Source: Phycisphaerales bacterium
GTDB taxonomy: Bacteria > Planctomycetota > Phycisphaerae > Phycisphaerales > UBA1924
Assembly (NCBI GenBank): GCA_947459215.1
Contig: CANHCQ010000001.1
Coordinates: 248,001-312,000, forward strand
Direction of reading: 5' to 3'
DNA: 64,000 nt
Shown here one piece after another: positions 2,184 to 56,307 of the stretch. Under the pieces are notes generated by a model. The model did no database searches, had not been told where the DNA came from, and saw only the letters and a list, made by a program, of their open reading frames with translations. Within the stretch, counting starts at the first letter, position 1, and each line of letters begins with the position of its first letter. Made by a program: the position numbers and the translations under genes.

Positions 2184-2260
2184 GGGGGCGGGGACTTCCA
2201 GGCCCCGCCGAAAAACGCGAGCGACCCCAAAGCACCAGTGGGACCGGCCTCCGGCCGGTC
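2184..2260. repeat. Two short palindromic repeats (families C and A)
   Basis: 2184-2209 is a GGGGCGGGG...CCCCGCC palindrome around ACTTCCAGG (here called family C; other copies near 4739, 4904 and 44371). 2235-2260 is CCAGTGGGACCGGCCTCCGG followed by CCGGTC (family A; other copies near 4641, 45056, 48238, 48761 and 56283). Both lie in the leader of the GH3 gene. Confidence 0.85.
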
Positions 2261-4640: not shown

Positions 4641-4926
4641 CCAGTGGGACCGGCTTTCAGCCGGTCTGAATTTCAGCGGGACCGGCTTCCAGCCGGTCAT
4701 CAAGAGCGAGTGCAGTCAACACGCGGGGGCGGGGCGCTGGGGCGGGGCCTTCCAGGTCCCGCGTATTGCGTCCCTCGTTTCCCCTTCATGGTGCCATCAG
4801 TCCGCCGTGGCTCGGCACGGCGCGACTGATGCCGTCTGCCAACCCCAGCGCCCAAACATCAGTCGCGCCGCCCAAAGCGGCGTCGGACTGATGGCACCGG
4901 AGCGGCGGGGCCTGGAAGGCCCCGCC
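4641..4926. repeat. Repeat cluster: two family A, two family C and a nested inverted repeat
   Basis: The bglX-miaA gap is almost entirely repeats. Family A copies lie at 4641-4666 and 4674-4698 and family C at 4739-4763 and 4904-4926. Between them is a 109-base element: GGTGCCATCAGTCCG (4790-4804) pairs perfectly with 4884-4898, and inside it GGCGCGACTGATG (4819-4831) pairs perfectly with 4857-4869. The element could fold as a two-level cruciform. Confidence 0.85.
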
Positions 4927-11622: not shown

Positions 11623-12402
11623 CACCCGTGGCTTCGAGACCATCCTGCCCACCTCCCGCCCCTCGCCCCAACGGGGCGAAGGCCTGTAGCCACGGGTGAA
11701 GCGACGCTGCCCTGAGCGTCGCGCAACCCGTGGAAGCGTGAGTCCTTTATCCTTTTCTTGCCCCGGAGGGGCAACGGAACCGCGTCCCCACAGAGAAAGG
11801 CCGCCCATGCCCGGCACCTACTCCCAACTCCTCCTCCACATCGTCTTCAGCACCAAGCACCGCGAGCCCTGGATCACCCCCAACGTCGCCGATCGCCTCT
11901 ACCCCTACATCGGCGGCATCGTCCGCGCCGAGAAGGGCGCCCTCTACGACATCGGCGGCATCGAGGACCACGTCCACCTCTACCTCCGCTGGCGCCCCGA
12001 CGCGCCCATCTCCGACCTCCTGCGCACCGTCAAGGCCCGCTCGTCCAAGTGGGTGCACGACACGTTTCCCGCGCTCGACGCGTTCGCATGGCAGGAGGGG
12101 TACAGCGTCTTCTCCGTCAGCAAGTCGCAGGAAGGCGCGGTGAAGAACTACATCGCCGGTCAGCACGAGCATCACAAGACACAGGATTTCAAGGCCGAAC
12201 TCCTCCAGATGCTTCGGCGGCACGAGATCGAGTTCGACGAGCGGTATGTGTTTGATTGATCGGGCTCACGGGTCACCCCTGTCGCCCCCGCCCTCCCTCC
12301 AGCCCACCCTCCTCTGCCCCTCCGGGGCAGGCGTGAAGGGGAGACACGCTCTCCACGGGTCGCGCTCCGCCCGGCTGACGCCGGGCTGCGCTTCACCCGT
12401 GG
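11623..12402 (+). mobile_element. RAYT/REP element: transposase flanked by mirror-image palindromes
   Basis: The left side has a hairpin 11690-11733 (CCACGGGT ... ACCCGTGG with an inner CGACGCT/AGCGTCG stem), then TTGCCCC-gga-GGGGCAA near 11759-11775. After the transposase gene the same two modules recur in reverse order: CTGCCCC-tcc-GGGGCAG near 12314-12330, then 12353-12402 (CCACGGGT ... ACCCGTGG with an inner GCCCGGC/GCCGGGC stem). A further CACCCGTGGC half lies at 11623. The layout fits a REP-associated tyrosine transposase with its own REP copies. No target duplication was identified. Confidence 0.75.
11807..12259 (+). CDS. tnpA_REP: IS200-like / REP-associated tyrosine transposase (RAYT, Y1_Tnp)
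   Basis: 150 residues from ATG 11807 (MPGTYSQLLLHIVFSTKHRE), which opens at the first conserved strand of the Y1 transposase fold. The HUH metal/nuclease motif is His-Val-His in IEDHVHLYLRWRP, and the catalytic tyrosine is probably Tyr in KNYIAGQHEHH near residues 119-127. Such HUH enzymes nick and rejoin single-stranded DNA at hairpins; RAYTs process REP palindromes. The ending RRHEIEFDERYVFD is typical of the family. An in-frame extension from 11696 would translate the left palindrome and is not used. Codon use is like the host, so the gene is probably long resident. Confidence 0.9.
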   Translation: MPGTYSQLLLHIVFSTKHREPWITPNVADRLYPYIGGIVRAEKGALYDIGGIEDHVHLYLRWRPDAPISDLLRTVKARSSKWVHDTFPALDAFAWQEGYSVFSVSKSQEGAVKNYIAGQHEHHKTQDFKAELLQMLRRHEIEFDERYVFD

Positions 12403-12949
12403 CTACATGCCGCGGCCCCGTTGGGTCCGGAGATGTTGGGGGGGGGGGAGGCCGACGGCGAAACGGCGGACCAAGGCTGTCCACTGACGAAGTGTTCATC
12501 GGAGCGGGTTGTCGTCGCCGGAAGTTTCTGCGCCCCTGAGTCGTTGCGCGGTCGTTGCGGCGAACGCCCTAAACACGACCACGGCCGCTGAGCCCGCCGC
12601 GGTTGTCGCAGCAATCCCGTTCGCACGAGCAGTCCACGTACAGGTGCGTGCTTTCCGCGCGTCTGCGTGATCGATCAGGCGATGCGGTGCCTCTTGTCCG
12701 ACGGCACGCACAGACGGGCGTGTCCGCGCTGTGACATGGGGTCATCGCCGCATGCCGCGGGTGCGACGGCGTCGCATCTTCTTGATGTCATCGGAATCGG
12801 GTATCTCCCGCGCCGCTGCACGATCCAAAGAATGCGGGCGGCGTACGCGTCGCTGGGAGCGTGTCACCCGCAGACCGTTCATGCCGGATGCAATGCCGTG
12901 TGTGGGCGAGTCGGGAACGTTTCGAACGTCTCAGCCAGGAGTCACACAT
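12403..12949. other. Gene-free stretch with an 11-G run
   Basis: No credible gene was found in these 547 bases; the open frames present lack coding signals. There is an uninterrupted run of 11 G at 12438-12448. The last 15 bases hold the ribosome site of the next gene. Confidence 0.6.
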
Positions 12950-45055: not shown

Positions 45056-45203
45056 CCAGTGGGACCGGCCTCTGGCCGGTCAACGCGTCTCTGCGGAATG
45101 GGCAGACCGGCCGGAGGCCGGTTCCACTGCTGGATGGAGATGACCGGCCGGAGGCCGGTCCCACTGGTGTGTGGGGTGGACCGGCCGGAGGCCGGTCCTA
45201 CTG
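45056..45203. repeat. Four family A palindromes in a divergent promoter region
   Basis: Copies at 45056-45081, 45105-45129, 45142-45166 and 45179-45203; the first is opposite in orientation to the other three. They lie between hpf (minus) and mnmE (plus), so they cannot be terminators for either gene. Confidence 0.9.
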
Positions 45204-48200: not shown

Positions 48201-48237
48201 GGGGTGTGATCTGCGGTCCCGCGACCGCAGCGCGAAG

Positions 48238-48262
48238 ACCGGCCGGAGGCCGGTCCCACTGG
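48238..48262. repeat. Family A palindrome upstream of rimO
   Basis: GACCGGCCGGAGGCCGGTCC followed by CACTGG. Downstream, 48270-48340 is a C/T-rich tract with CTCTCCGCGTTCTCTCTC-like units, also repeat-like. Confidence 0.85.
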
Positions 48263-48357: not shown

Positions 48358-50121
48358 GTGCCAAAGACCACGCGGAAAAAGAACGACACGATCGAGTCCG
48401 TCTCGCTCGTGAGCCTGGGCTGTCCCAAGAACCTTGTCGACAGCGAGAAGATGCTCGGCCTGCTCGCCGAGAGCGGCCTTGCGCCCGTCTCCTACGACCC
48501 CTCCAACGAGAACTCCGCCTTTGAGGGCGCTGACGCCGTCGTCATCAACACGTGCGGCTTCCTTGAGGCGTCGAAGGACGAATCGCTGCAGGTGATCAAG
48601 GACGCGATCCGCGAGAAGGAAGCGGGCCATGTGAAGCGCGTCGTCGTTGCCGGCTGCCTCGTGCAGCGCCACCGGGCCAAGATGCTCGAGTGGGCCCCCG
48701 GCATCGACGCGATGGTGGGGGTGTTCGATCGCGACAAGATCGTCGAGGCCGTCGTTGGTACCAGTGGGACCGGCCTCCCGGCCGGTCGGCGAAAAGCCAA
48801 ATCGCTCGAAGAAGCCTCCGACAAGCCCAAGTACTGGATCGCTGCCAATGCGCTGGTCGCAGCCAAAGAGCGCGACATGAAGGTCACCGGCCTGACCGTC
48901 CAGGGCAAGGACGGCAAGGGCATCGGCTACTTCGAGGACGACTCGGCCCGCCTCCGCCTCACGCCGCGGCACTACTCGTACCTCCGCATCAGCGAGGGCT
49001 GCAACCAGAACTGCGCGTTCTGCACCATCCCCAGCATCCGTGGCAAGATGCGCAGCAAGCCCGGGGATCGCATCTGCTCCGAGGCCCGCGAACTCATCAA
49101 CGACGGCGCGTTCGAGATCCTGCTCATCGGGCAGGACACGACGAGCTACGGCGATGACATCGGGGCGGGGCTGAAGCCAAATAGCAAAGAGGCAAATGGC
49201 AAATCGCAAATGAAGAAAGCCGGCAAGGGTTCGGCCGACTTCTCCGACTACGGCGGGCTTCCCGCGCTCCTGCAATCGCTCTCCGACACCATCGACGACG
49301 CCAACCACGGGCAGGGCTGGCTGCGGCTCATGTACGCCTATCCCACGAACTTCAGCGATCCCATCATCGAGGCGTTCGGCGCACTCGTGGCCAAAGGACG
49401 GTTGGTGCCGTATCTCGATATCCCGCTGCAGCACGCCTCGGATCGCGTGCTCGAACTGATGCGTCGCAACGTCACTCGCAAGCAGCAGGGTGATGTGATC
49501 AAGAAGCTCCGCAAGGCGGTGGGGAACGGGCACTCCAGCTTCCCGGCGGGCATGTGCGTCCGCACCACGTTCATCAGCGGCTTCCCGGGCGAGACCGAGG
49601 CGGACCACAAGCAGCTCTTGGAGTTCATCGAGGAGATGGACTTCGAGGCCGTGGGCGTGTTCGAGTACAGCCACGAGGAGGGCACGGTCGCGGGCACGAT
49701 GGAAGAGAACCCCAAGCTCGCCGTGCCGCCCGAGGTGAAGGAGCGGCGTCGCAACGAGGTGATGGAGCTGCAGCAGAAGCTGGCCTTCAAGAAGGCGGCG
49801 GCGATGGCGGCGAAGTTCAACGAGAAGGACCCGCTGGGCTCCCTGAAGAAGGGTGCGGTGCAGCTTGATGTGCTGATCGACGCGGGCCTGCGGACCAGCG
49901 GCAAGAAGACCAGCGGCGTGTCGGACGGCGGGCGGCTGTATGTGGGCCGCACGTACTTCCAGGCCCCGCAGATCGACGCGGTGACGTACGTCCAAAGCCG
50001 CGAAAAACTGGCCCCGGGCGAGGTTGTCCGCTGCGTGGTGGTGGGGAGCGACGGCTACGACCTGGTGGCGCGGCCGGTGAGCGAGCTGGAGAAGAAGGTG
50101 GGGCTCAGCATCCTCCGCTAG
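48358..50121 (+). CDS. rimO: Ribosomal protein S12 methylthiotransferase, with repeat-derived inserts
   Basis: 587 residues from GTG 48358; RimO is usually ~430-450. It adds a methylthio group to Asp88 of S12. The N-terminal MTTase domain has SLVSLGCPKNLVDSEKMLG and INTCGFL, RVVVAGCLVQR (three cluster Cys). The radical SAM site is EGCNQNCAFC (CxxxCxxC), followed by IRGKMRSKP, LLIGQDTTSYG, LDIPLQHASDRVL and the TRAM region. Two extra segments are encoded by dispersed repeats: around residues 135-145 (48761-48790) and around 274-287 (49177-49216). Both fall between conserved blocks and keep the frame, so the enzyme may still be active. Confidence 0.93.
   Translation: MPKTTRKKNDTIESVSLVSLGCPKNLVDSEKMLGLLAESGLAPVSYDPSNENSAFEGADAVVINTCGFLEASKDESLQVIKDAIREKEAGHVKRVVVAGCLVQRHRAKMLEWAPGIDAMVGVFDRDKIVEAVVGTSGTGLPAGRRKAKSLEEASDKPKYWIAANALVAAKERDMKVTGLTVQGKDGKGIGYFEDDSARLRLTPRHYSYLRISEGCNQNCAFCTIPSIRGKMRSKPGDRICSEARELINDGAFEILLIGQDTTSYGDDIGAGLKPNSKEANGKSQMKKAGKGSADFSDYGGLPALLQSLSDTIDDANHGQGWLRLMYAYPTNFSDPIIEAFGALVAKGRLVPYLDIPLQHASDRVLELMRRNVTRKQQGDVIKKLRKAVGNGHSSFPAGMCVRTTFISGFPGETEADHKQLLEFIEEMDFEAVGVFEYSHEEGTVAGTMEENPKLAVPPEVKERRRNEVMELQQKLAFKKAAAMAAKFNEKDPLGSLKKGAVQLDVLIDAGLRTSGKKTSGVSDGGRLYVGRTYFQAPQIDAVTYVQSREKLAPGEVVRCVVVGSDGYDLVARPVSELEKKVGLSILR
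48761..48790 (+). repeat. Family A palindrome inserted in frame in rimO
   Basis: CCAGTGGGACCGGCCTCCCG then GCCGGTCGGC. It equals the copy at 2235-2260 plus one extra C in the loop. It is translated as SGTGLPAGRR. Confidence 0.9.
49177..49216 (+). repeat. AAATGGCAAAT-type repeat inserted in frame in rimO
   Basis: CCAAATAGCAAAGAGGCAAA followed by TGGCAAATCGCAAATGAAG. A reverse-orientation relative lies near 61769-61812 before the PfkB gene. It is translated as NSKEANGKSQMK. Confidence 0.75.
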
Positions 50122-56075: not shown

Positions 56076-56207
56076 GCGCAGCAGATCGAATCGCCTTCGG
56101 GGATTGGTGGTGAGACGCAGGGTCATGGACGGCCCTGAACGAACCCAAGGGGGACCGCGACGCGGACGGGTGCAGGCCCGGGCCGCGTCGCGGCGCTTTT
56201 GGCATCA

Positions 56208-56307
56208 GTGGGACCAGCCTCCGGCGGGTCTTCCCGCGGAAACGTAAAGACCGGCCGGAGCACGGTCTTGCGGCGACTTGAGGACCGGCTGGAAGCCGGT
56301 CCTACTG
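56208..56307. repeat. Three degenerate family A copies
   Basis: TCAGTGGGACCAGCCTCCGG near 56208-56235, GACCGGCCGGAGCACGGTC near 56250-56270 and GACCGGCTGGAAGCCGGTCC at 56283-56303. The last overlaps the stop codon of the decarboxylase gene. Confidence 0.8.

Follow-up and report, generated by a model that had tools for sequence, protein, structure and literature searches.

Palindromic repeats within coding sequence have been described before. Intragenic GTAG-tagged REPs are known, for example, from Opitutus terrae (Di Nocera et al. 2013, PMC3733652); the same study raised the possibility that such insertions are neutral when they fall in linkers or loops, and it reported that two Xanthomonas species have different REPs at about one site of recB. 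The Rickettsia palindromic elements (RPEs; Ogata et al. 2000, 2002) are about 150 bp long as summarised in PMC10969869, and RPE-4 and RPE-6 have been classed as CGTC repeats for which no associated transposase was found (PMC3733652). In vitro cleavage of REPs by RAYT-type enzymes has been published for other species, where a TnpAREP still cleaves GTGG variants (PMC8266576). An in-frame REP in rimO taken alone is of an already known kind (PMC3733652, PMC10969869).

The repeat described here resembles those of Di Nocera et al. in that its family consists of tagged palindromes, often in inverted pairs, which lie in frame in conserved enzymes and are associated with a RAYT. It differs in its Phycisphaerales host, in the gene, in the filling of one linker by unrelated REPs in at least four lineages, and in a probable cognate RAYT that itself lies in frame within rdgB. 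RPEs, as described in that summary, are likewise mobile palindromes found in frame in many unrelated genes with no evident loss of function; unlike them, the present element measures about 28 nt and is accompanied by a RAYT that has these repeats on both sides. Inverted REP pairs and a RAYT between the same REPs are shared with REPIN/RAYT systems (Bertels and Rainey 2011, PMC3116915), but whereas the REPs of that study are described as extragenic, about a tenth of the loci sampled here are in-frame coding sequence. What is new is the recurrence of REPs in at least four genus-level lineages, the presence of two REPINs in one RimO, and the location of RAYTs inside rdgB and valS.

We analysed a window of 64,000 nt (the whole stretch of DNA, whose features are collected in Table 1) from a genome of 3.66 Mb, G000, and compared it with a sister species, G001. 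The rimO reading frame is uninterrupted from its GTG start to its stop codon. Its product scores 387 bits against the TIGR01125 equivalog profile (cut-off 357), the domain scan finds UPF0004, Radical_SAM and TRAM_2 in that order, as in RimO, and the radical SAM CxxxCxxC cysteines C215, C219 and C222 are invariant. Within this gene lies the 28-base repeat ACCAGTGGGACCGGCCTCCCGGCCGGTC, with the palindromic core GACCGGCC-TCCC-GGCCGGTC. It is read in frame as T135-S-G-T-G-L-P-A-G-R144, followed by R145, and it is a single REP rather than a REPIN. The GC-rich family-A palindrome contains no stop codon in any of the six reading frames.

Table 1. Coordinates of rimO, its inserted repeat and the other family-A copies of the window
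Feature	Position	Strand	Basis
rimO, ribosomal protein S12 (Asp) methylthiotransferase, 587 aa	48358..50121	+	GTG start, TIGR01125, domain order
Family-A REP, extra-C loop subtype, tag GTGG	48760..48787	+	sequence, translation, 149-copy genome family, same in G001
Palindromic core of the rimO REP	48768..48787	+	sequence
Variable interdomain linker of RimO, about residues 132-159, between MTTase and radical-SAM domains	48751..48834	+	codon alignment, pLDDT
Family-A REP, exact	2236..2260	+	window search
Family-A REP, 3 mismatches	4642..4666	+	window search
Family-A REP, 3 mismatches	4674..4698	+	window search
Family-A REP, 1 mismatch, unit 1 of four-unit cluster	45057..45081	+	window search
Family-A REP, 1 mismatch	45105..45129	-	window search
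Family-A REP, exact	45142..45166	-	window search
Family-A REP, GTAG-tagged, 1 mismatch	45179..45203	-	window search
Family-A REP, exact, shortly upstream of rimO	48237..48261	-	window search
Family-A REP, 2 mismatches	56206..56230	+	window search
Family-A REP, GTAG-tagged, 3 mismatches	56283..56307	-	window search

These data bear out an earlier note on this DNA, which had assigned a 30-base segment of rimO to a dispersed family A, with coordinates accurate within 1 base, and had read it as SGTGLPAGRR in an otherwise intact gene. The intergenic copies that it listed are real as well, but those at 4674, 45105, 45142, 45179 and 56206 had been overlooked. Its remark that an additional C in the loop sets the rimO copy apart holds within the window but not beyond it, since three more exact copies of this form lie elsewhere in the genome: the extra-C 22-mer GGGACCGGCCTCCCGGCCGGTC occurs four times in G000, rimO included, and 11 times in G001. 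We considered the extra C as a mark of frame repair in rimO and rejected this, the subtype being recurrent at other genomic sites.

The family as a whole has the properties of GTAG-superfamily REPs. At up to 3 mismatches the genome holds 149 dispersed copies of the short palindrome, compared with 0 for a reversed-pattern control. Ten copies besides that in rimO lie in the window under the same threshold, and 100 dinucleotide shuffles of it yielded none. Among 112 sampled copies, the 5' tetranucleotide tag is GTGG 80 times and GTAG 23 times, and many copies of the family form +/- pairs spaced 40-80 bp, as in REPINs. The G001 orthologue of the copy shortly upstream of rimO has decayed.

We trained a codon-usage model on the window and applied it to the stretches around the 112 sampled copies. 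It places 88 of them between genes, 14 at one gene edge (together 102 of 112, the family being mostly extragenic in the manner of REPs) and ten in frame between coding flanks. These ten represent eight genes, from roughly 70 sampled REP loci: rimO and seven further conserved genes, namely rdgB, gpmI, a RibBA-type gene, and those for L-serine dehydratase, a DinG/YoaA-type helicase, an FAD oxidoreductase and a GlcD/Fe-S protein. Since the palindrome is read in several frames (SGTGLRPV, QWDRPPAG, DRPEAGPT), tolerance of any open frame fits better than selection for one peptide.

A RAYT lies between inverted family-A REPs in G000 (C6:160723(+)/161284(-)) and at the equivalent position in G001, the arrangement of a REPtron in both genomes. 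The two proteins score 93.6 and 89.8 bits, respectively, against NF047646 (cut-off 80). Judged from this arrangement, the RAYT is likely the cognate transposase of family A. In both species it is inserted in frame within rdgB/HAM1 (L109 2-1390, G000:C6:160200-161800; L110 3-1295 in G001), so that rdgB and RAYT form one open frame of 466-468 aa. No other Ham1 gene was found in either genome, and rdgB is uninterrupted in the six other congeners. RAYTs homologous to this one are read in frame within rdgB of G021, G019 and G032 (L246, L252, L253), at the site used in G000, and within valS of G014, G023, G024 and G039 (L247, L248, L249, L251), where they share one common site across four genera of two families; the calls of rdgB in G019 and G032 and of valS in G024 were made by sequence inspection rather than by family scan. 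We found no report of a RAYT inside rdgB or valS in the literature searched, which was covered in part. HAM1 matches in G026 (C4:34391-35131) and G041 (C15:31781-32449) are split by short in-frame extra sequence; the split in G026 falls at the RAYT site and is possibly a REP insert without a RAYT. The window also contains another Y1-transposase gene (11819-12163, within 11667-12425), which lies between 37-bp inverted repeats unlike family A.

In the protein, the insert contributes about ten residues to a linker of low confidence between the MTTase and radical-SAM domains. The AlphaFold model, built with 24 aligned sequences, has a mean pLDDT of 85, and the internal segments below 50 include residues 138-144 and 148-153, which comprise the insert and the part following it, and 276-285. 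The known RimO structure 4jc0 aligns on both flanks of the insert but not through it. A second disordered loop of RimO is encoded at 49180-49230 of the window by an A-rich run of near-repeats (AAATGGCAAATCGCAAATG), an in-frame low-complexity insert of another kind than a REP.

A codon alignment of eight congeners shows the insert in G000 and G001, whose RimO proteins are 95% identical, and not in G002-G007. The stretch from the FDR to the YW motif measures 31 residues in the two carriers, compared with 26 and no repeat in the six other species, whose linker has itself diverged. Among 61 genomes, family A at up to 1 mismatch is represented by 89 copies in G000 and 79 in G001, and by at most 8 in each of the 59 others. 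Insert and abundant family are both confined to these two genomes and therefore coincide in phylogenetic range. The rimO segment is one of the copies of a dispersed repeat and was gained in this lineage, in line with the earlier suggestion that the repeat is mobile or copied.

We examined the linker in about 88 genomes of the family, in some of them over its first 80 bases, so that further cases may have been missed. Three other lineages carry a REP of their own there. The linker of G017 contains GGCACCGGTCTCCTGACCGGTGC, present in 44 copies in that genome and in none of four other genomes tested, and that of G010 contains GTGGGACAGGCCTCGCGCCTGTCC, with 36 copies in its own genome. A G010 RAYT of the same clade as that described above (C8:9737-10159) sits between REPs of the family found in G010 rimO. 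In G187 (L168, Phycisphaerales SJ456) the linker holds an entire GTAG-tagged REPIN whose core occurs 75 times in the genome, and a second complete REPIN is inserted in frame in the loop following TTSYGDDLG (L168 3250-3320). REPINs thus occupy both variable loops of this RimO, the second site matching the low-confidence residues 276-285 of our model. G175 is probably a fifth lineage; its linker contains a palindrome that is symmetric but untagged and has 8 hits in the genome, a count in which two places appear on both strands. In a RimO tree computed with the linker masked, the carriers form separate lineages with non-carriers between them, some deep nodes being weakly supported. On this comparison of sequences, REPs have entered the linker independently in at least four lineages (G000/G001, G017, G010 and G187), and the earlier statement that RimO tolerates an insert here is supported by these repeated events. 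The linker is a recurrent and seemingly harmless landing site for palindromes. Between 0.15 and 0.6 hits are expected per given gene, compared with three further secure lineages (P about 0.0005-0.03, a rough figure that takes equal odds for every gene and is indicative only).

The earlier note held that an equally long but unrelated sequence at this place in relatives would speak against the repeat. Such linkers exist in G019 and G036, with no demonstrated link to repeats, but the identity of the repeat described here stands. The length of the RimO linker also appears to change by routes other than REP insertion, because these two are equally long without such a link. As additional REP cases they are unsupported, G019 having no long palindrome and that of G036 being short. 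A Humisphaera rimO (L188) encodes a linker with a QLSVVSGPLSGV-type peptide, which resembles translated simple repeats.

We consider a RAYT-linked insertion of a REP into rimO, kept since the linker tolerates insertion, to be the best explanation (probability roughly 0.85). Family A, with its GTGG and GTAG tags, would probably have been mobilised by the RAYT, which may also have catalysed the insertion. The REP would have entered the linker in an ancestor shared by G000 and G001, once that lineage had split from the other sampled congeners, and would persist because the linker lacks structure and accommodates changes in length and because the palindrome lacks stop codons in all frames. The insert would then be near-neutral, with RimO activity presumably kept.

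True exaptation, in which the REP peptide or an mRNA hairpin is selected in RimO (for instance as a longer linker or as a pause between domains) and the recurrence is due to positive selection, is unlikely. At least four independent gains in one linker would suit it, as would the identity of REP codons 135-143 between G000 and G001. Yet 12% of all 10-codon windows of rimO are equally unchanged, so that this identity is ordinary for the gene and no extra constraint on the REP codons is detectable in the G000-G001 comparison; we rejected such constraint. A selected mRNA hairpin at the domain border was likewise rejected, since local folding of carriers overlaps that of non-carriers and no carrier-specific effect was found. 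Moreover, the inserted peptides are unlike one another in sequence, frame and length, REPs are absent from the linker of most RimOs of the family, and the second REPIN of G187, in another disordered loop, suggests simple tolerance. The earlier note had called the repeat exapted; because codon identity is unexceptional and mRNA folding does not separate carriers from non-carriers, a new function is unsupported, and 'tolerated' is the supported wording.

Somewhat less probable still is a single ancient insertion that gene conversion with the resident REP family later replaced in each lineage. This would account for the shared linker and for the head-first orientation common to G000, G017, G010 and G187, but lineages between the carriers lack any REP-like palindrome, and the inserts are unequal in length, frame and exact position, with a full REPIN in G187 and single REPs elsewhere. 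That ordinary linker codons, which are GC-rich and variable, became palindromic by accident is hardly credible and already refuted by the shuffled windows and by the recurrence of the exact extra-C 22-mer in the genome.

On RAYT-linked insertion with tolerance, rimO is a phylogenetically placed example of a conserved enzyme reshaped by selfish palindromes. RimOs with and without the insert among congeners, together with unrelated repeats that fill the linker in parallel in other genera, permit direct comparison, and one can ask by experiment whether such insertions are neutral and in which of their loops conserved proteins take new sequence. The in-frame RAYTs of rdgB and valS suggest a route by which a transposase may hide within housekeeping genes. 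A broader reading, to which we give even odds, is that the REP/RAYT systems of Phycisphaerales live inside genes, with RAYTs persisting as in-frame domains of RdgB and ValRS, both essential or housekeeping enzymes, and REPs colonising enzyme loops. If so, RAYTs would hold one fixed site per host enzyme, intein-like but without splicing, and REPs would repeatedly enter the same disordered loops in RimO and other conserved enzymes.
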